Notes under the pieces: model-generated | Seen by the model: only the letters and a program-made list of their open reading frames with translations | The model's database searches: none | Told to the model about the DNA's origin: nothing | Made by a program: the position numbers and the translations under genes | In this document: positions 3,954-32,643 of the stretch, piece after piece | Numbering within the stretch: the stretch's first letter is position 1 | How the letters are laid out: each line of letters begins with the position of its first letter | From: an uncultured Lachnospiraceae bacterium | GTDB lineage: Bacteria; Bacillota; Clostridia; Lachnospirales; Lachnospiraceae | Length of the DNA: 64,000 nt | Assembly (NCBI GenBank): GCA_902778165.1 | Contig: CACYWQ010000001.1 | Span: 124,001-188,000 of the forward strand | Direction of reading: 5' to 3'

Positions 3954-5450
3954 ATGAGAAGAATATCACTATTATTAATCACAATATCGGCTGTTGCGGC
4001 CGTGTCATATATGCCAGTTATTGATTCAATGGCAGCGGGATCATCATTAACACCCACTATGACCATATCCGACGGTATAACCATAGGTGATTTGGACATG
4101 TCGGGCAAGACTTACGATGAAGCCAAGTCTGCAATTGAGAGCAAAATAAGCAAGGCATGTGAAGCGGACATTACGGTATACTGTGTCGATAACGAGAGTG
4201 CCGTATTGCATATGGGTGACATATCGCTTACATGGAATAATCCCGACGTGGTGGATGAAGCGGTTGCCTACGGCAATAAGGGTAATGTTGTTAAGAGATA
4301 TAAAGATAAGAAGGATATAGCAAGAGAGGGAGTTAAGCTTCCTATATCATACGGATATTCAGAGGCGGCAATCAGGCAGTTCGTGCAGGAACAGTGTATT
4401 ATATATAATCACGAGGCTGTGGATGCCACATTAGAGAGAGTAGACGGCGGATTTAACATAGTTTCCGGTATGGAGGGAGCTATTGTTGATGAAGATGAAG
4501 CGGTAAGCTTTATTGAGAACTTCATCACGGGTACCTGGAGCGGCAATCCCTGTGAGATTGAGCTTCCGGTTAAGACTGATGTTCCCAAGGGAACAGAAGA
4601 AGATCTGTCACAGGTAACCGATGTATTAGGGACTTTCTCTACCAGTTATAAGACATCCGGAGCAGATCGTTCAGCCAATGTGGCCAACGGATGCAGACTT
4701 GTTAACGGAACTACGGTATATCCCGGTGAAGAGTTCTCGGTATATGATCATATTAAGCCTTTCTCAGAGGCTAACGGATATCATATGGCAGGATCGTATG
4801 TTAACGGTCTTGTAGTAGACAGCTTAGGCGGCGGAATATGCCAGGTTTCCACAACATTATATAATGCGGTAATTCGAGCGGAACTTGAGATAGTGGAGCG
4901 TAACAACCACTCGATGGTAGTCTCTTATGTACCGGTATCACAGGATGCCGCAATATCGGAATCTTCAGGTAAGGATTTCAGATTTATCAATAATACGGAC
5001 TATCCCATATACATCGAAGGTTATACTACGGATGAGAAGAAGATAGTGTTCAATGTCTACGGCAAGGAGACAAGACCTTCTGACAGAACGGTTGAGTTTG
5101 AGACCAAGATATTGGAGACAATAGTTCCCGACGGTGAGAAGATTATAACTCAGTCGGATAAGCCTGTTGGTTATTCATCCGTGCAATCGGCGCATACGGG
5201 ATATAAGGCGCAACTTATTAAGATTGTTAAGGAAGGCGGCACGGAAGTAAGTCGCGAAGTGTTCAATACAAGTACCTACAATGCGGTGCCGCGAACTGCG
5301 GTTATCGGTACTGCTTCGGCAGATCCTGTGGCGATAGCACAGATTCAGGAAGCGGTGGGCACAGGCAGCATAGATTACGCAAGATCTGTGGCCGGAGCAT
5401 ATGCGGCGCAGGCAGCAGCGGCAGCCGCTCAGGCAATAGGAGAGCAATGA
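3954..5450 (+). CDS. VanW family exported protein
   Basis: This 498-residue cell-envelope protein has an N-terminal signal peptide or anchor (MRRISLLLITISAVAAVSYM). A peptidoglycan-binding-like region follows (about 35-210), with DLSGK-like text (GDLDMSGKTYDEAKSAIESK). The VanW domain (about 225-360) is unmistakable from YPGEEFSVYDHIKPFSEANG, GGGICQVSTTLYNAV and ERNNHSMVVSYVP. The C-terminus ends in an Ala-rich tail. VanW proteins occur next to vancomycin-resistance and wall genes, but their biochemical role is not settled, so resistance should not be inferred. There is no ribosome binding site before ATG 3954, and no other in-frame start is available upstream. Coupling to the 31-residue gene is the likely explanation. 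It shares an ATGA overlap with the next gene. Confidence 0.9.
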   Translation: MRRISLLLITISAVAAVSYMPVIDSMAAGSSLTPTMTISDGITIGDLDMSGKTYDEAKSAIESKISKACEADITVYCVDNESAVLHMGDISLTWNNPDVVDEAVAYGNKGNVVKRYKDKKDIAREGVKLPISYGYSEAAIRQFVQEQCIIYNHEAVDATLERVDGGFNIVSGMEGAIVDEDEAVSFIENFITGTWSGNPCEIELPVKTDVPKGTEEDLSQVTDVLGTFSTSYKTSGADRSANVANGCRLVNGTTVYPGEEFSVYDHIKPFSEANGYHMAGSYVNGLVVDSLGGGICQVSTTLYNAVIRAELEIVERNNHSMVVSYVPVSQDAAISESSGKDFRFINNTDYPIYIEGYTTDEKKIVFNVYGKETRPSDRTVEFETKILETIVPDGEKIITQSDKPVGYSSVQSAHTGYKAQLIKIVKEGGTEVSREVFNTSTYNAVPRTAVIGTASADPVAIAQIQEAVGTGSIDYARSVAGAYAAQAAAAAAQAIGEQ

Positions 5451-24690: not shown

Positions 24691-24719
24691 AAGACAAACA
24701 AGGTCATCTGTGGTATCAT
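24691..24719 (+). promoter_or_regulatory. Candidate extended -10 promoter for the xpaC-telA pair
   Basis: AAGACA (24691-24696), a 17-base spacer and TATCAT (24714-24719) are preceded by an exact TGn extension (TGG at 24711-24713). It lies in the short gap after ftsH, 21 bases before the start codon. Confidence 0.4.
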
Positions 24720-24739
24720 ACATAAGGGATGATAATACT

Positions 24740-26017
24740 ATGTCGAATCAGAATAACAACCAGAAATACAACGAATTAGGGGATCAGATTAAGAATTCGG
24801 TGTTGGAAGCGCTTAGTACCGGTGATTTTACCGGATTAAGCGACAGCATCACCAAATCTGTTAATGTAGTCATAGGTGACGTGGGAGATCATATCTCACG
24901 TGCGGCTTATACTGCGGCCAACAGTGCCCAGACAGGTGCAAGGAATGCCGCAGCTGCGGCTACAGCCAAGAGATTCCATGATGAGCAGGCTGCAAGGATT
25001 CAGCGCAACAAGGAATTACGCGCAGCTGCTGTTAAGAGAAATCTTCAGAGAGTCAGATACAATGATGCCGGAGCTTTCTCAAGTATATTAAGAATTGTTT
25101 TCGGTTCATCGATTGCTTTCTTCTTTGGAATAGTTTTCCTTGGAGCAATGGTCAGCTTTACAATGGCAGAACTCGGCCCTGCCGTATTTGTGGCACTTAT
25201 GACTCTCCTCGGCGGATGGATGATATACAGCGGCATATCGACACGTAAGATGCTTGGATTCGCCAGAAGGCTTAAGGAACTGGTTAAGGATAAGTTCTAC
25301 GTATCCCTTAAGGATGTTGAATCTGCCACGGGACTTGATCATAAGACTACTGTAAGAAATGTTAAGAAGGTTCTTAGGAAGGGATATTTCCCCGAAGGAT
25401 ATATAGATGAGGAAGAGACCACGTTCATGGCATCCAAGGCTATATATGACCAGTATCTTAAGACCAAGAAGACGATGGTTGAGACAGCCAAGGAAGAGCT
25501 TAACAAGCAGGGTGTAGCCACAGAAGAAGGCGGACTTACATCTGAGCAGCTTACAGAGCTTAACAGCATGATAAGCGAAGGAACCAAGACCATCGTAAGA
25601 TTGCATGAGCTTAACGATGAGATTCCCGGAGAAGTCATTACAGCCAAGCTTGACAGAACCGAAGCCCTTCTTCAGGATATATTCGGAAGGGTGAAGGATC
25701 ACCCCGAGCAGATGAAGAACTGCCATAAACTTATGGACTATTATCTTCCGACGATGCTTAAGCTCGTAGAAGCATATGCGGAGTATGATAAGGTTGCAGA
25801 GCCGGGCCCTGATATAATCAAGGCTAAGGATGAGATAGAGAAGACCATCGATACTATCAACGGAGCATTCTCGGAACTGCTTAATAAGTTATTCAGAGAT
25901 TCCGTATGGGATGTAACGGCAGATGCAAGGGTATTACAATCAATGCTTGGACAGGACGGTCTGGCTAAGGACGATATAGATGATCTGTCCGTATCGATAG
26001 CGGATACAGAGATTTAG
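24740..26017 (+). CDS. xpaC: XpaC-like membrane protein, partner of TelA
   Basis: This 425-residue protein starts with an Asn/Gln-rich head and an Ala-rich helical region. Two adjacent membrane helices follow (about 120-170, IVFGSSIAFFFGIVFLGAMV and ALMTLLGGWMIYSG). The cytoplasmic domain then shows the XpaC pattern LVKDKFYVSLKDVESATGLD and LRKGYFPEGYIDEEETTFM. XpaC was named for hydrolysis of 5-bromo-4-chloroindolyl phosphate, but its real function is unknown. Its constant neighbour, a TelA-type protein, follows after 45 bases. ATG 24740 is preferred; a GTG at 24710 overlaps the predicted promoter. Confidence 0.85.
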   Translation: MSNQNNNQKYNELGDQIKNSVLEALSTGDFTGLSDSITKSVNVVIGDVGDHISRAAYTAANSAQTGARNAAAAATAKRFHDEQAARIQRNKELRAAAVKRNLQRVRYNDAGAFSSILRIVFGSSIAFFFGIVFLGAMVSFTMAELGPAVFVALMTLLGGWMIYSGISTRKMLGFARRLKELVKDKFYVSLKDVESATGLDHKTTVRNVKKVLRKGYFPEGYIDEEETTFMASKAIYDQYLKTKKTMVETAKEELNKQGVATEEGGLTSEQLTELNSMISEGTKTIVRLHELNDEIPGEVITAKLDRTEALLQDIFGRVKDHPEQMKNCHKLMDYYLPTMLKLVEAYAEYDKVAEPGPDIIKAKDEIEKTIDTINGAFSELLNKLFRDSVWDVTADARVLQSMLGQDGLAKDDIDDLSVSIADTEI

Positions 26018-26062
26018 ATGGCGGAGTAAGTATTTTTTAACTTATATAGGAGGGAATATAAT

Positions 26063-27217
26063 ATGGCAGAAGAAGCAGTATTAACAGCAGAAGAGACAGT
26101 GGCAGCACCTGCGGCACCTACGGTAGCTGAGGCTACGGCAACAGCAGCATCCGCTACATCAGCAACCGCGTCGGCAGCAGATGACCTTGACCTTACGGCA
26201 GAAGATAAGGAGAAGATTAAGGCATATGCCGAGAAGATAGATATAATGGACAGCCAGATGGTATTACAGTACGGTTCGGGCGTTCAGAAGCAGATTGCGG
26301 ATTTCTCAGAGACGGCACTTTCAAGTGTTAAGACCAAGGATCTCGGTGAGATCGGCGATATGCTTACAGGCGTTGTAACGGAACTTAAGGGCTTTGATGC
26401 CAATGAGCAGGCTAAGGGGCTTAAGGGATTATTTAGGAAGAGTACTGCCAAGGTTACGGCTCTTAAGGCCAAGTATGACAAGGCAGAGAATAATATTAAC
26501 GGTATTGTCAAGGCAATGGAAGGTCATCAGGTTACTCTTATGAAGGATGTGGCTATGCTTGATCAGATGTATGAGACTAACCAGCAGTACTATAAGGATC
26601 TCACACTTTATATCCTTGCAGGTAAGGAGAAACTTAAGGTTGCAAGAGAAGAAGAACTTCCCAAGCTTCTTAATAAGGCTGAGCAGACAGGTCTTCCTGA
26701 AGATGCACAGGCAGCCAAGGATTATTCTTCTATGATCGATCGTTTCGAGAAGAAGATATATGACCTTGAACTTACACGTAACATCTCTATGCAGATGGCT
26801 CCTCAGATCAGACTTATTCAGTCCAATGACACAGTTATGTCTGAGAAGATTCAGTCAACCATTCTTAATACCATTCCTTTATGGAAGTCACAGATGGTTA
26901 TCGCTATCGGACTTGAGCATTCACAGGATGCAGCCAAGGCTCAGAGAGAAGTTACGGATGCCACCAATGAACTTCTTAAGAAGAATGCAGAGGCTCTTAA
27001 GATGGCTTCTATCGATACGGCTAAGGAGAGTGAGAGAGGTATCGTGGATATCGAGACACTTACTCAGACCAACCAGACACTTATCGATACCCTTGACGAA
27101 GTTATGAAGATTCAGCAGGAAGGCAGAGTTAAGCGTGCAGAGGCCGAGAAGGAACTCGCCCGTATCGAGACCGAGATGAAGAATAAGGTTTTGGAAGTCA
27201 GCAAAGCCTCAAGATAA
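26063..27217 (+). CDS. telA: TelA family toxic anion resistance protein
   Basis: This is a 384-residue, largely alpha-helical cytosolic protein. An Ala/Thr-rich low-complexity head (about 1-45) precedes the conserved TelA domain: GSGVQKQIADFSETALSSVK, LKGLFRKSTAKVTALKAKY and QLIRLIQSN-like text (MAPQIRLIQSNDTVMSEKIQ). The C-terminus is coiled coil. The family was linked to tellurite and cell-envelope antibiotic resistance, although the mechanism is unresolved. A strong GGAGGG ribosome binding site is present. Pairing with XpaC is conserved across Firmicutes and suggests one envelope-stress function. Confidence 0.93.
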   Translation: MAEEAVLTAEETVAAPAAPTVAEATATAASATSATASAADDLDLTAEDKEKIKAYAEKIDIMDSQMVLQYGSGVQKQIADFSETALSSVKTKDLGEIGDMLTGVVTELKGFDANEQAKGLKGLFRKSTAKVTALKAKYDKAENNINGIVKAMEGHQVTLMKDVAMLDQMYETNQQYYKDLTLYILAGKEKLKVAREEELPKLLNKAEQTGLPEDAQAAKDYSSMIDRFEKKIYDLELTRNISMQMAPQIRLIQSNDTVMSEKIQSTILNTIPLWKSQMVIAIGLEHSQDAAKAQREVTDATNELLKKNAEALKMASIDTAKESERGIVDIETLTQTNQTLIDTLDEVMKIQQEGRVKRAEAEKELARIETEMKNKVLEVSKASR

Positions 27218-27232
27218 CAGAGACAATCATAA

Positions 27233-28771
27233 ATGGTTTTTTCCGATTTAGCATTTATATTTCACTTTTTTCCAATATTTCTGATCGTATACTATATTGC
27301 GAGAGGTAAGGCTCGCAATATAGTATTACTTTTGGGCAGCTTAATCTTCTATGCATTAGGCAGCCCTATTTATGTATTGCTTCTTATCGCATCGGTTCTG
27401 ATTAATTACCTGATAGCCAACAGAATACAGGCTGTATATGCACTTAAGCGTATTGAAGCGAAGTTGGATTCGGATACCGCTGAGAATAAACAAGAGGAGA
27501 CTGAGTCTTCAATCGAAATAATCGATTTTGATAAAGAGGACGAAACGTCTGAAGATGAAGGTAAGACAGAAGAACATGTTAAACCGGGTGTAGCTGCAAC
27601 GATATGGCTTATAACCGGCCTTATCTATAATCTCGGTGTTCTGTGTGTGTTCAAATACCTTGATTTTATCTTAGATGTTACGGACAGTGCATTCGGAACA
27701 GGAATTAAAGGACCGGGACTTGCACTTCCCTTGGGTATAAGCTTCTATACCTTCCAGATGATATCATTTATCGTGGATGTATACAGACAGAATACGGAGA
27801 ACAGAGTAAGTTTCATTCATTTTGCGGTATATTCTACGATGTTCCCGCAGATTGCATCAGGTCCCATCACAAGATACGGTGAAGTCATAGAGACTCTTAA
27901 GCGTAAGAAAGGTGTTAAGACCGCATACCTTGAGAAAGGTATGATTGCTTTTATATTGGGACTGGGATATAAGGTATTGCTTGCCGATAAGATAGCGGCA
28001 CTTTGGAATGATGTATGGAGAGTAGGTGCTTACGGAATAGATGTGGCCACTGCATGGCTTGGTTCCTGGGCATATTCCATGCAGATATATTTTGATTTCT
28101 GGGGTTATTCATTAATGGCGATGGGTGTAGCCGGAATGCTTGGCTTTAATCTCCCTATCAACTTTACGGAACCCTACAGTTCCAAGACAATGACGGGATT
28201 CTGGCGTAACTGGCATGTCACACTGGGAAGATGGTTTAAGGATTATCTCTATATTCCTCTTGGAGGCAACAGATGCTCTAAGATAAGAATGTTATTTAAT
28301 ATGCTTGTGGTATGGCTGCTTACGGGCATATGGCACGGAGCGGGATATAACTTCATTATTTGGGGCCTATTCTTATTTGCCATCTTAACGATAGAGAAAC
28401 TTACATACGGTAAATGGATGGAGAATACCAAGGTGATCGGTCATATATATATGATCATCTTAATCCCCATATCATGGACCATATTTAATATTACTGATAT
28501 AAGCGAACTTGGCGCATATCTTATGCGTATGGTGAATATTCCCCTTGAAGGAATGGTTGTATACGGATTCAATCAGTTTACTGAGCTTATTGGAACATAC
28601 TGGTGGATCATGGGCTTATGTATATTGTTTGCAACTCCTTTCCCCATGCGATTTATAAGAAAATACAAGAACAATATGTTTACCAAGCTTATTTTGCTTG
28701 CTATATTCTGGTACAGCGTATACCAGGTTGCGATTACGGGTGACAATCCGTTTATTTATTTCCAATTCTAG
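27233..28771 (+). CDS. MBOAT family O-acyltransferase (AlgI/DltB/PatA type)
   Basis: This 512-residue multi-pass enzyme is expected to move acetyl groups across the membrane to an envelope polymer. Family motifs are intact: LPLGISFYTFQMISFIVDVY, FPQIASGPITRY, YFDFWGYSLMAMGVAGMLGF, RNWHVTLGRWFKDYLYIPLG and the catalytic histidine region WHGAGYNFIIWG. An acidic cytoplasmic loop (about 75-115) is inserted early. Two bases after its stop comes an SGNH protein, the usual extracellular partner that completes the transfer. No good ribosome binding site precedes ATG 27233. A 15-bp perfect inverted repeat lies within codons 19-32. The acceptor polymer could be peptidoglycan or the polysaccharide encoded downstream. 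Confidence 0.93.
   Translation: MVFSDLAFIFHFFPIFLIVYYIARGKARNIVLLLGSLIFYALGSPIYVLLLIASVLINYLIANRIQAVYALKRIEAKLDSDTAENKQEETESSIEIIDFDKEDETSEDEGKTEEHVKPGVAATIWLITGLIYNLGVLCVFKYLDFILDVTDSAFGTGIKGPGLALPLGISFYTFQMISFIVDVYRQNTENRVSFIHFAVYSTMFPQIASGPITRYGEVIETLKRKKGVKTAYLEKGMIAFILGLGYKVLLADKIAALWNDVWRVGAYGIDVATAWLGSWAYSMQIYFDFWGYSLMAMGVAGMLGFNLPINFTEPYSSKTMTGFWRNWHVTLGRWFKDYLYIPLGGNRCSKIRMLFNMLVVWLLTGIWHGAGYNFIIWGLFLFAILTIEKLTYGKWMENTKVIGHIYMIILIPISWTIFNITDISELGAYLMRMVNIPLEGMVVYGFNQFTELIGTYWWIMGLCILFATPFPMRFIRKYKNNMFTKLILLAIFWYSVYQVAITGDNPFIYFQF
27289..27326. repeat. Perfect 15-bp inverted repeat inside the start of the MBOAT gene
   Basis: ATACTATATTGCGAG (27289-27303) and CTCGCAATATAGTAT (27312-27326) are exact reverse complements around the 8-base loop AGGTAAGG. 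No T-run follows. It would form a strong hairpin in the mRNA close to the start codon. Confidence 0.7.
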
Positions 28772-28772
28772 T

Positions 28773-29957
28773 ATGGCAGAGAAGATTAGAAAAAAGAAAA
28801 ACAAAATAACGAAATGCCCGCTTTTTATACTTGTATGTCTTACAAGTGTGGGAATGATGATATACGGAGCACTGATGGCATTTAAAGGGGAATACGTATG
28901 GGAACTTACATGGGACCATCCGGTATTTGCCGCCGTTTTGCTTGATGAACGCCCTGTTAAGGAAGCAGAAATAAAAGAACCTGTTGCAGTAGCAGAGGGC
29001 GAATCGCCTATAGAACTTATGGCTGAAGAATCATCGGAAGAGCCTGTAAGTGAAGAAGAATCATCAGAAGAAGAGCCTGAGAGCGAGGAACCGTTAATAA
29101 GTGATGAAGAATACATGGAGATGTACGGACAGATTCCTTTTTTTGTTGACGGAGGCGGAGCTGTTAAATACATTAATTGGGATGCCGGAGAACCAAGATC
29201 AAGATACTATGACAATCCCGGTATAAGGCCCATTACCTCAGAGTATCCATATGTACATGTGACGGATCCCTTAAGTTATTATGACAGATGCTTATTTGTC
29301 GGTGATTCAAGAATCGGCGGATTGGGCACATATGCCGGCTGGGATACGGCATTCTTTGCATATAAGAACGGACTTACCGTATACGGAATGATGGAACAGA
29401 ACCTAAGCGTTATTAACGGTATGAATGCAACTTTCCCGGAATTGCTTCAGGTAGGTCCGTATAAGCGTATATATATAATGCTTGGAATTAATGAGATAGG
29501 CACAAGTACCGAGAGCTACAGCGAGGAATTCGGTAATATATTGGCTACTATCCGTCAGTATCAGCCGGATACGCCGATAATCATACTTGCCAATACTTTT
29601 GTTACCAAGTCCAAGGATTTATCGAGCAATTCGACCAACAACGGTAATATCAATTCCAAGAATGTATCCATTGCCCGTTACGCTAACGGTGAAGATATAT
29701 TCTATTTCGACGTCAATCCCGTTCTTGTTGATGATGAGGGATATTTAAGAGAAGAGATATCCAGAGACGGAGTTCACCTTCTGGCGCAGCATTATTACCT
29801 CTGGGTTGATTGGATGAATGAACACGGATTCAGGGAAGAGGGCGTGGAATATGCCGAAGATCATCCCGAATGGGCAGAAGAATCAGAGGATTCTTCGGAT
29901 TCAGAGTCCGATGAGGATTCAGAAGACACTGACTCGGATACAGATAATACGGATTAA
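28773..29957 (+). CDS. SGNH/GDSL-type hydrolase, probable O-acetylation partner
   Basis: This 394-residue protein has one N-terminal membrane helix (about 15-37) and an acidic Ser/Glu-rich linker (about 75-115). The extracellular SGNH domain (about 165-350) shows the Ser motif VGDSRIGGL, the Gly/Asn motif MLGINEIG and the Asp-His motif DGVHLL. A highly acidic Ser/Asp/Glu C-terminal tail closes it. It fits the periplasmic partner of an MBOAT acyltransferase, as PatB or AlgX/J do. The start is ATG 28773, right after the MBOAT stop at 28771, with no ribosome binding site, so translation is coupled. An upstream in-frame start at 28698 lies deep inside the MBOAT gene and was rejected. Confidence 0.87.
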   Translation: MAEKIRKKKNKITKCPLFILVCLTSVGMMIYGALMAFKGEYVWELTWDHPVFAAVLLDERPVKEAEIKEPVAVAEGESPIELMAEESSEEPVSEEESSEEEPESEEPLISDEEYMEMYGQIPFFVDGGGAVKYINWDAGEPRSRYYDNPGIRPITSEYPYVHVTDPLSYYDRCLFVGDSRIGGLGTYAGWDTAFFAYKNGLTVYGMMEQNLSVINGMNATFPELLQVGPYKRIYIMLGINEIGTSTESYSEEFGNILATIRQYQPDTPIIILANTFVTKSKDLSSNSTNNGNINSKNVSIARYANGEDIFYFDVNPVLVDDEGYLREEISRDGVHLLAQHYYLWVDWMNEHGFREEGVEYAEDHPEWAEESEDSSDSESDEDSEDTDSDTDNTD

Positions 29958-29982: not shown

Positions 29983-31413
29983 ATGATGAGCAAATCATTT
30001 GATGATCTTAGGCAACTGCATAAGGAATTCATATACAAAGGCTATTTGATCAGTAGAATACCCGACCCTAAGTCAGAAGGTACAGGTGAGGTATACCATG
30101 TCTGTTTTGATATGGAGATTACCGGCTTGTCGGAATTTAAGGCCGTATGGGATTTCCCTGTAAGCGCTGTGAAAGGTGCGACAACACCTGTTAAAGACAT
30201 CGATCTGTCGGATGACCCCATATTTAAGGAGCTTATATTTGCCTTGGGACTTACTGAGTGTATCAGTTATTATAAGATAGCCTGTCCCAAGGAATTCAGA
30301 ATAGATTGCGCCAACTTAAGTAATGAAGAGATTCTGTGGTGGCGTAAGCTTATATATAACGGACTCGGAGAATTCATGTACCGTAACGGAATGTATGTTA
30401 CGGAAGAAGAATTGGTTAACATAACTTGCGTGGGCAGTTCGGTTTCAACACGCAGATCTTTGCATGATAGTCGCAGTTATAGCGGATATCTGGTGCCTGT
30501 AGGCGGAGGTAAAGATTCCGTTGTCAGCTTAGAGATTCTTAAGAATGAAGATATAGTCACATATACAGTTAACGGCAATGATACGACCCGTGCCGTTATA
30601 GATGTGTGCGAATACAAATCAGGGGATTATGTGGCAAGAAGAGTCCTTGATAAGAGGATGCTTGATCTTAACAGTGAAGGATATCTTAACGGTCACACAC
30701 CTTTCTCTGCGATAGTTGCTTTCTCATCTGTTATTACAGCCTATATCCTTGGTAAGAAATATATTACCTTATCTAATGAGAACAGCGCAAACGAATCCAC
30801 GGTTCGTGGAAGTTTCGTCAATCACCAATATTCCAAGAGTTATGAATTTGAGAAGGATTTTATGACGCTTCTTAGAAGCATCACCGATTCCGATATACAT
30901 TATTTCAGTATGTTAAGACCCCTTACGGAGCTTCAGATAGCGGCATTATTCTCTGATGCAATACCCTATCATAAGGTGTTCAGAAGCTGTAATGTCGGAA
31001 GCAAGAAGGGCATATGGTGTGGAGATTGTCCGAAGTGTCTGTTCGTATATATTATCCTCTCACCCTTCATATCAGAGGATAAGCTAACAGAGATATTCGG
31101 TTCCAAATTGCTTGATAAGGAGAGCCTTGATAAGGATTTCAGGGAACTTATCGGAATAGAGGAGAATAAACCTTTTGAGTGTGTCGGTACAAGGGCGGAA
31201 GTAAGTGCCTGTATGAAGCACTACAGACTAAGGGGAGGCATAAGTCTGCTTACGGATCGATATGCGGATTATATTGATGCAATGCCTTATGATGGAACTT
31301 CACCGATTATTTCAATGTTATCTGATTGGAATAACGAACATAATGTTCCGGATAGAATAAGTGATATGGTCCGTAAGGCCATTGAAGAATATGCAATATC
31401 TTATAAGGGTTAA
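29983..31413 (+). CDS. murL: UDP-MurNAc-L-Ala-L-Glu epimerase MurL
   Basis: MurL inverts the terminal L-Glu of UDP-MurNAc-L-Ala-L-Glu to D-Glu, replacing the need for free D-Glu from MurI. The 476-residue protein keeps the family's motifs, as I recall them from Xanthomonas MurL: LGEFMYRNGMYV (128-139), a PP-loop-like GGGKDSVVSLE (174-184), YLNGHTPFSAI, LSNENSAN, VNHQYSKSYEFEKDF, HYFSMLRPLTELQIA, the CGDCPKC cysteine cluster (about 346-352) and NKPFECVG. The next gene is a short MurD relative, the expected L-Glu-adding partner. The pathway was described in Xanthomonas, so finding it in a Firmicute is notable. The family match is strong; activity is inferred. Confidence 0.88.
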   Translation: MMSKSFDDLRQLHKEFIYKGYLISRIPDPKSEGTGEVYHVCFDMEITGLSEFKAVWDFPVSAVKGATTPVKDIDLSDDPIFKELIFALGLTECISYYKIACPKEFRIDCANLSNEEILWWRKLIYNGLGEFMYRNGMYVTEEELVNITCVGSSVSTRRSLHDSRSYSGYLVPVGGGKDSVVSLEILKNEDIVTYTVNGNDTTRAVIDVCEYKSGDYVARRVLDKRMLDLNSEGYLNGHTPFSAIVAFSSVITAYILGKKYITLSNENSANESTVRGSFVNHQYSKSYEFEKDFMTLLRSITDSDIHYFSMLRPLTELQIAALFSDAIPYHKVFRSCNVGSKKGIWCGDCPKCLFVYIILSPFISEDKLTEIFGSKLLDKESLDKDFRELIGIEENKPFECVGTRAEVSACMKHYRLRGGISLLTDRYADYIDAMPYDGTSPIISMLSDWNNEHNVPDRISDMVRKAIEEYAISYKG

Positions 31414-31452
31414 TAATGTAAAATACGGGCAACTTACCCTGTTGGAGCAATA

Positions 31453-32643
31453 ATGATAGATTTAGACGGCAAGAAGATCTTAATATGGGGTTATGGAAGA
31501 GAAGGCAAGTCTACGGAAGCCTTCTTGTCTGCCCATCTGTCTGCAGATTCCCCAAAGCCTACAATATATGAAGGTGACAGAGAGGGAATTGATGAAGAAG
31601 CTTATGATGTAATAATCAAGAGTCCCGGCATCAGAATGGATGAGGATAACCCTAAGTATACTTCACAGACAGAACTGTTCTTAAAGGCATTTAGGGATAA
31701 GGTCATCGGCATTACGGGTACAAAAGGTAAGAGCACCACAAGTAAACTTATGCAGGAAGTGTTGGCGGCATGTACCGGAAGAGACGTTATTCTGCTTGGC
31801 AATATAGGCAAACCCTGCCTTGATTATTATGATGAGATAACAGAAGATACGATAGTTGTCTATGAGATGAGTTGTCATCAGCTTGCTCATTCTCATATTT
31901 CTCCTCATATAGCGGTATTTCTTAATCTCTATGAAGAGCATCTGGATTACTATGATACTTTGGATAGATATTTCACGGCTAAGTCGCACATAGCTACTTA
32001 TCAGACGGATAGTGACAGATTCTATGTGGGAGAGAATGTCCCCCATATAGATACGGCAGCAACAACTACGATCATTAAGCCCTCAGATGTCAGAGAATAT
32101 GATCTTAAGCTTAAGGGTGAGCATAACAGATACAATGCGGAATTCGTATACAGAGTAGCAACAGAATGTTACGGTTGTGATCCGAATGCTGTAATTTCCG
32201 CTCTCTCAGAGGTAACAGGCCTTCCTCACCGTCTTGAATATGTCGGTGCAAGAGGTGAAGTGACTTACTATGATGATTCGATATCCACAATCCCTGAGGC
32301 CACGATCAGCGCGCTTAAGAGTATCCCCAATGCCTGCAGCATATTGATCGGTGGAATGGATAGAGGAATAGATTACACCAAACTTACGGATTATATTATT
32401 AAACATCCCGAATATAATTATATATGCATGTATGCTTCGGGAAGAAGGGTTTATGACACAGGTGTCATAAGCGATCTTCCCAATACATATTATGAGCAAG
32501 ACCTTGAAGCAGCGGTTAAGACAGCAGAGAGGATCACGGACAGGGGAGCAATAATCTTATCTCCCGCGGCGGCTTCCTATGACCATTTCAAGAATTTTGA
32601 AGAGCGCGGAGATTGTTTTAAGAAACTGATTATGTTACGATAA
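31453..32643 (+). CDS. murD2: MurD2-type UDP-MurNAc-L-Ala--L-Glu ligase
   Basis: This 396-residue Mur ligase is clearly shorter than ordinary MurD (about 450). The N-terminal Rossmann segment is ILIWGYGREGKSTEAFL. The ATP P-loop is GITGTKGKSTTSKL (about 86-99). Further Mur ligase motifs are LGNIGKP, EMSCHQL, LNLYEEHLDYY, GEHNRYNAEFVYRVA and LPHRLEYVG, followed by YYDDSISTIPEATISAL. Standing directly behind MurL it should add L-Glu, not D-Glu, to UDP-MurNAc-L-Ala. If it is instead the genome's only MurD, the paired MurL would be hard to explain. D/L specificity cannot be read from sequence by eye. Confidence 0.85.
   Translation: MIDLDGKKILIWGYGREGKSTEAFLSAHLSADSPKPTIYEGDREGIDEEAYDVIIKSPGIRMDEDNPKYTSQTELFLKAFRDKVIGITGTKGKSTTSKLMQEVLAACTGRDVILLGNIGKPCLDYYDEITEDTIVVYEMSCHQLAHSHISPHIAVFLNLYEEHLDYYDTLDRYFTAKSHIATYQTDSDRFYVGENVPHIDTAATTTIIKPSDVREYDLKLKGEHNRYNAEFVYRVATECYGCDPNAVISALSEVTGLPHRLEYVGARGEVTYYDDSISTIPEATISALKSIPNACSILIGGMDRGIDYTKLTDYIIKHPEYNYICMYASGRRVYDTGVISDLPNTYYEQDLEAAVKTAERITDRGAIILSPAAASYDHFKNFEERGDCFKKLIMLR

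Follow-up and report, generated by a model that had tools for sequence, protein, structure and literature searches.

In Xanthomonas, the D-glutamate (D-Glu) of peptidoglycan is obtained by a pair of enzymes, MurD2, a ligase that adds L-Glu, and MurL, which then epimerizes the nucleotide-linked residue. MurL converts ATP to AMP, probably by adenylation of the α-carboxylate, and has been described as being without known conserved domains (PMC8788868; PMC5808125). According to a 2021 review, the pathway is known from some Gammaproteobacteria and Alphaproteobacteria as well as from rare actinobacteria; the same source calls it restricted to a relatively small number of genera and promotes it as a target for narrow-spectrum drugs (PMC8788868). 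A 2018 review also listed a fungus, cyanobacteria, and an amoeba as having orthologues of low similarity (PMC5808125). No report of MurL-MurD2 in Firmicutes was found among the open-access matches listed. Here, such a pair is described from an uncultured Lachnospiraceae bacterium (GCA_902778165.1; 2.35 Mb in 48 contigs, 95.3% complete), where it lies in a stretch of 64,000 nucleotides (contig CACYWQ010000001.1, positions 124,001–188,000 of the forward strand), referred to as the window. Judged from the comparisons given below, the pair very probably replaces MurI and provides the D-glutamate of the cell wall in this genome of the Lachnospiraceae type. Gene content, adjacency, residues, non-overlap with MurI, fusions, and predicted fold were computed here, and the Xanthomonas reaction and the proposed adenylate are taken from the literature.

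A MurL-type gene adjoins a MurD2-type ligase gene

The initial annotation of the window had proposed a MurL gene followed by a gene for a short Mur ligase. This observation was confirmed and is far beyond chance; both open reading frames (ORFs) are present in the same orientation with a gap of 39 bases (Table 1). The ligase is indeed short, with 396 amino acids as against 478 in X. sacchari MurD2, and all five MurL motifs named in that annotation were located in the protein encoded by the first ORF. The assignment to MurL and MurD2 is supported by family models, alignment with the Xanthomonas pair, specificity residues, the ligase tree, the adjacency of the genes, and two natural fusions.

The MurL-type protein was matched by the NCBIfam model NF041275 with an E-value of 1.3e-73 and 248 bits (profile positions 61–445 of 447, residues 85–465). 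NF041275 is a Xanthomonadales equivalog model with a curated cut-off of 700 bits, on which X. sacchari MurL scores 836.5 bits; the window protein, a homologue from beyond the taxon to which the model is restricted, does not reach the cut-off. It is MurL in a wide sense, showing homology over most of its length and conserved motifs in common with Xanthomonas MurL, and its gene adjoins MurD2 in a genome (95% complete) with no MurI match. Alignment with the annotated X. sacchari pair, a check proposed with the initial annotation, gave 35% identity over 326 aligned positions for MurL, and the motifs GGGKDS, SNExSA, NHQxSK, WCxxCxKC, and KPFECVG were found to be common to both proteins. The gene adjoins a ligase gene in Xanthomonas as well as in the window, whereas the two systems belong to different phyla and two relatives on the window side have MurL fused to MurD2. 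Among 63 aligned MurL sequences, S264, N265, E266, S268, A269, E271, N280, H281, Q282, S284, and K285 were invariant, as were C336, C346, and C352, and C349 was conserved in at least 90%. The window MurL matched no Pfam family at E-values up to 0.001, with DUF6395 giving a weak 18.3 bits (cut-off 25), and no solved relative was found by sequence at E-values up to 1. A comparison of the MurL and MurD2 profiles gave no match.

The ligase passes the cut-off of the murD model TIGR01087 (259.5 vs. 211.95 bits), and its predicted structure (predicted local distance difference test, pLDDT, 95) had MurD as the top PDB matches. Its fold is that of canonical MurD, and the conserved positions E157, H183, and K198 (E. 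coli numbering) are retained, but it differs in the specificity residues and in its branch of the tree. In Xanthomonas MurD2, E197 and R358 bear on L-Glu use and the double change E197D/R358K leads to D-Glu, while K319T makes E. coli MurD accept L-Glu (PMC8788868). In spite of only 26% identity, the window ligase agrees with X. sacchari MurD2 in having E, I, and R where E. coli MurD has D182, K319, and K348, the three positions by which the Xanthomonas enzyme is set apart from it, and the Glu and Arg of the E197 and R358 sites are E162 and R304 in the window ligase. The MurD of S. mutans has a natural Arg at the K348 site, yet uses mainly D-Glu (PMC8788868); hence, Arg at this site is by itself no proof of L-Glu use.

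These three sites were counted in MurL-linked ligases, of which 102 rows were reduced to 99 distinct over the last 300 residues, with near-copies remaining. Ile at the K319 site and Arg at the K348 site were found in 99/99, and the D182 site was occupied by Glu in 75 and, unlike in MurD2, by Asp in 24 (Pseudobutyrivibrio and others). All 27 canonical MurDs compared had D/K/K; they came from 44 genomes and comprised 20 from genomes with MurI, 5 from genomes without MurI or MurL, and 2 from MurL genomes. A 28th (G042), truncated by the end of its contig, was excluded from the count; it is D/K/K too. Since the D182 site varies while the other two are universal, I319/R348 is the constant mark of the MurL-linked ligases. 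In a ligase tree of 74 rows, including 19 of the 75 ligases from GTDB loci, X. sacchari MurD2 grouped with the MurL-linked ligases, apart from canonical MurD, with a support of 99 (Shimodaira–Hasegawa-like approximate likelihood ratio test).

Table 1. Features of the MurL-MurD2 locus (coordinates in the window)
Feature	Coordinates	Strand	Remarks
murL-type ORF	29983..31413	+	476 amino acids, intact
GGGKDS, residues 174–179, predicted ATP-pyrophosphate loop	30502..30519	+	Invariant in 63 aligned MurLs; also in X. sacchari MurL
SNENSANES...VNHQYSK region, residues 264–285, predicted active site (putative role)	30772..30837	+	Conservation
C336(x)9C346xxC349xxC352, predicted metal-binding cysteines, QueC-like pattern	30988..31038	+	Conservation
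MurD2-type ligase ORF	31453..32643	+	396 amino acids, intact
E162 (E. coli D182 / Xanthomonas E197), glutamate-specificity site	31936..31938	+	MAFFT alignment; role from PMC8788868
I277 (E. coli K319 position)	32281..32283	+	Alignment; effect of K319T in E. coli MurD from PMC8788868
R304 (E. coli K348 / Xanthomonas R358), glutamate-specificity site	32362..32364	+	Alignment; role from PMC8788868

We infer the activity and specificity of both proteins, as well as the link of MurL with QueC discussed below. In the proposed pathway, MurC would yield UDP-MurNAc-L-Ala, to which the MurD2-type ligase would attach L-Glu, and the added glutamate would be flipped from L to D in place by MurL, as described for Xanthomonas. 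With MurI replaced by the pair, no free D-Glu would be needed.

MurL and MurI over the cut-off were not found together

The genome that contains the window gave no MurI match. It also has no protein of the Asp/Glu racemase family PF01177; broad racemases of the pyridoxal phosphate type were not searched for. The model for D-amino acid aminotransferase gave a partial match of 35.5 bits in this genome and was over its cut-off in none of 44 genomes scanned. The sole MurD over the cut-off is the window ligase, and the three other Mur-ligase places were assigned to MurC (C2), MurF (C12, adjoined by Ddl), and MurE (C28). Thus, the search for murI and a second murD that had been suggested with the initial annotation turned up neither over the cut-off. 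That annotation had spoken of a second route to D-Glu, which has to be rejected in the sense of a route beside MurI, as the pair is the only recognized route here. It had offered two alternatives. This genome and two samples of relatives support the replacement of MurI, while a separate modified stem peptide finds no support, the window ligase being the genome's only MurD over the cut-off.

The first of these samples comprised 150 genomes of the family, and MurL was detected in 12 of them with the NCBIfam model. A profile built from the 12 family MurLs recovered the same 12 genomes and, in addition, a degenerate piece in G086. MurI over the cut-off was present in 0/12 MurL genomes compared with 126/138 others. 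The second sample comprised 393 genomes of the class with a completeness of 90% or more; the MurL profile had matches in 18, of which 17 were counted, with MurI over the cut-off in none of the 17 compared with 338/376 others. Six of the 17 were scored as MurI-less by their absence from the full list of matching genomes. The genome that was not counted (G228) has MurI, and its MurL match was short (E 2.3e-4) with an internal stop; a weak match at G115:C137 (E 9.8e-4) was likewise not counted, a full MurL being present elsewhere in that genome. Fisher's test gave p = 1.6e-11 for the family and 2.7e-16 for the class, values that ignore kinship and are indicative only, and the two samples share a few genomes, including the one studied here. 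In the single-contig MurL genomes G170, G338, and G493, no MurI, PF01177 protein, or DapF was found. The absence of a MurI match from the genome itself and the lack of any co-occurrence of MurL with MurI over the cut-off in either sample argue for the replacement of MurI by the pair.

Distribution, linkage, and fusion of the two genes

A lone case in Firmicutes can be rejected for the window, given the matches in the family, the class, and GTDB contigs. MurL is carried by 12/150 family genomes (∼8%) and 17/393 class genomes (∼4%), the latter spanning eight families. A scan of GTDB contigs with two peptide patterns gave at least 580 confirmed stretches, with possible double counting, and the best 80 loci were kept. 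According to their labels, these 80 were mostly from Lachnospiraceae and other Clostridia, Ruminococcus, and Oscillospiraceae, and also from Erysipelotrichaceae; a few were labeled Bacteroidales, Alistipes, Thermoflexaceae, or Mycoplasma. Cultured bacteria are among the carriers, e.g., Pseudobutyrivibrio xylanivorans DSM 14809 and Butyrivibrio fibrisolvens 16/4.

A MurD2-type ORF was found in the flank at 75 of the best 80 loci, one as a fusion and 74 as separate ORFs, all on the same strand as MurL. Among the separate ORFs, 71 lay within −125 to +146 bases of MurL and three ∼2.7 kb off. At one locus without a ligase ORF (L094), the sequence ends just past MurL. The ligase was also present at 15 of 16 class loci (own genome left out), fused in one, and the single miss (L165) is at a contig end. 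MurL and MurD2 are fused in an 857-amino-acid ORF of a sheep-rumen Lachnospiraceae metagenome-assembled genome (L076), in which the gene order MBOAT, GDSL, MurL, MurD2, and RmlD is that of the window, and in a 1019-amino-acid ORF of G170, which belongs to a different family and is assembled as a single contig. The two fusions are taken as separate events since they are far apart in the tree and unlike in length and linker.

A MurL-like "hypothetical protein" was also observed on Pseudonocardia plasmids (three records), among them one of Pseudonocardia alni (L157:3809–5209). No ligase is annotated beside the gene at the locus examined, and a different role may be possible.

Alternative explanations and genomes that do not fit

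Several observations weigh against the replacement of MurI by the pair, and some of them favor other explanations. The ligase could be an ordinary D-Glu ligase, supplied with D-Glu by an unrecognized racemase, e.g., a bifunctional DapF, with MurL doing something else. DapF is present in the genome studied here, and, as a DapF with glutamate racemase activity has been reported in Chlamydia (PMC5885031), a moonlighting enzyme of that type is possible when this genome is taken alone. The Asp in 24 of the 99 linked ligases also agrees with an ordinary D-Glu ligase. In addition, PF01177 was over the cut-off in the MurL genomes G029, G116, G135, and G137, meaning that some MurL carriers do have other racemases of the Asp/Glu type, and weak matches to the MurI model below its cut-off were seen in G116 and G135 of the family and G417 and G490 of the class. 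However, DapF was not found in the MurL genomes G007, G116, G170, G338, and G493, neither R348 nor I319 occurred in any canonical MurD compared, and MurI over the cut-off never accompanied MurL in the two samples. Fusion of MurL to the ligase in two lineages argues against an unrelated function of MurL. An ordinary D-Glu ligase with a hidden racemase is, therefore, improbable.

It could also be supposed that the product of the pair is a surface polymer or a modified peptide and not the main wall precursor, as the two genes sit in a polysaccharide gene region. Their neighbors include genes for an MBOAT acyltransferase, a GDSL protein, RmlD, and a glycosyltransferase, and additional glycosyltransferases and GDP-sugar enzymes are encoded at a greater distance. 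These neighbors are common to the near relative L076, but MurL-MurD2 lies among other genes at L089 and L090, and no MurD over the cut-off other than the window ligase was found in the genome; this explanation is very improbable. That MurI is merely missing from the draft, the pair being a back-up, is a possibility that 48 contigs and 95% completeness leave for this genome taken alone, and it can be given next to no credence in view of the absence of MurI over the cut-off from all MurL genomes of both samples (own genome in both), three of them single-contig.

The reading of the pair as a replacement of MurI has also to be set against a number of loci and genomes. The counts of MurL and MurI ignore kinship between genomes, and X. 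sacchari MurD2, the sole proteobacterial reference in the ligase tree, is on a long branch. Four of the best 80 loci (L134, L139, L144, and L148) have MurL with flanking sequence and no MurD2-type ORF. Two family genomes (G111 and G119) have MurL-MurD2 together with a canonical D/K/K MurD and are without MurI. Seven more family genomes have neither MurL nor MurI; six of them have a canonical MurD, three are less than 75% complete, and the remaining one without a MurD over the cut-off is G020.

Five further family genomes have a MurD2-type ligase without an intact MurL or a MurI over the cut-off. The residues at the three sites are E/I/R in G025, G041, and G086 and D/I/R in G089 and G128 (ligase loci L064, L065, L068, and L069 in G025, G041, G089, and G128). 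These orphan ligases were found to be scattered within the MurL-linked clade of the tree, which suggests loss of MurL. In G086, which is rated 100% complete and has no MurI match, a degenerate N-terminal piece of MurL of 246 amino acids lies beside the ligase (L067:7586–8326, minus strand), and the GGGKDS loop is absent from it. In G128 (69% complete), a gene resembling those for D-amino acid aminotransferase scored 200 bits, below the cut-off, and G025 has a PF01177 protein (130 bits); G041, G086, and G089 have neither. MurL may merely be missing from the assembly of G041, which is 92% complete. It is conceivable, if rather unlikely, that some Lachnospiraceae have gone further along, with the MurD2-type ligase kept, a working MurL lost, and no MurI over the cut-off.

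Predicted fold of MurL

An AlphaFold2 model of the window MurL, based on the 63-row alignment, had a pLDDT of 92 and a predicted template modeling score of 0.92, and the GGGKDS loop follows a strand at residues 169–172. Its sole PDB match at E-values up to 0.001 was chain B of 9y02 (E 1.1e-4), a QatB-QatC entry; with 427 residues, this chain is by its length QatC, a member of the QueC family. Hallmarks of QueC proteins are an SGGxDS motif and a zinc-binding C(x)8CxxCxxC site (PMC13329287). MurL may resemble the QueC family (QueC, QatC, and Cap9) in the predicted fold, and it comes near to it in the GG-DS loop and the C(x)nCxxCxxC pattern. It differs in that the loop starts with GGG instead of SGG, the cysteine spacing is C(x)9 vs. 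C(x)8 (the first gap being longer in X. sacchari MurL), and the reaction would be an epimerization as opposed to amidation or conjugation.

Other comparisons were less favorable to this likeness, which has weak support from sequence. The TM-scores of the MurL model with QatC were low (0.36 and 0.40), and alignment of MurL with a profile of 12 QueC sequences by hhalign gave a probability of 12.6% (E 0.0023), with the loop as the aligned part. The Pfam QueC family was matched by 8/63 MurLs (best E 0.014), and the uncharacterized DUF6395 by 61/63 (best E 1.5e-4). In G228, the weak match to the MurL profile overlaps a weak QueC-type match. From the predicted model, it is likely that MurL and QueC have a common ATP-pyrophosphatase scaffold, and the two may be true kin. 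On such a scaffold, the GGGKDS loop would hold the phosphates of ATP and the CxxCxxC site a metal, and a QueC-type fold fits the ATP-to-AMP chemistry of MurL. No literature linking MurL with QueC or PP-loop enzymes was seen in an open-access search, and a text search found no "murl" in two QueC-family papers. The lead offers MurL a testable chemical mechanism.

Genes around the pair

Directly before murL, at 27233–29957 of the window, an MBOAT acyltransferase that is weakly DltB-like is followed by a GDSL-domain protein, perhaps a pair for acylation of a surface polymer. Upstream of these, an XpaC-like (Halogen_Hydrol) gene and a TelA toxic-anion-resistance gene are located at 24710–27217, and a VanW-domain protein with a peptidoglycan-binding domain at 3954–5450. 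A long run of genes on one strand extends from 36544 to 62344; among the ten ORFs scanned there, GDP-sugar enzymes, glycosyltransferases, EpsG, a bacterial sugar transferase, two YfhO-like genes, and one CotH gene were identified, and the run is probably a surface polysaccharide region. Scans of the window for tRNA genes and Rfam families were empty, and promoter and terminator scans gave no usable result.

Implications for Clostridia

The sequence evidence described here concerns a known pathway in a well-supported new range of lineages. Roseburia intestinalis seems to be without murI, and exogenous D-Glu or an altered wall has been proposed for it (PMC7478625); by analogy, MurL-MurD2 may be an obvious candidate to explain this case. 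If some of the Clostridia of gut and rumen use the route, inhibitors of MurL or MurD2 would also hit these bacteria, and inhibitors of MurI would spare them.

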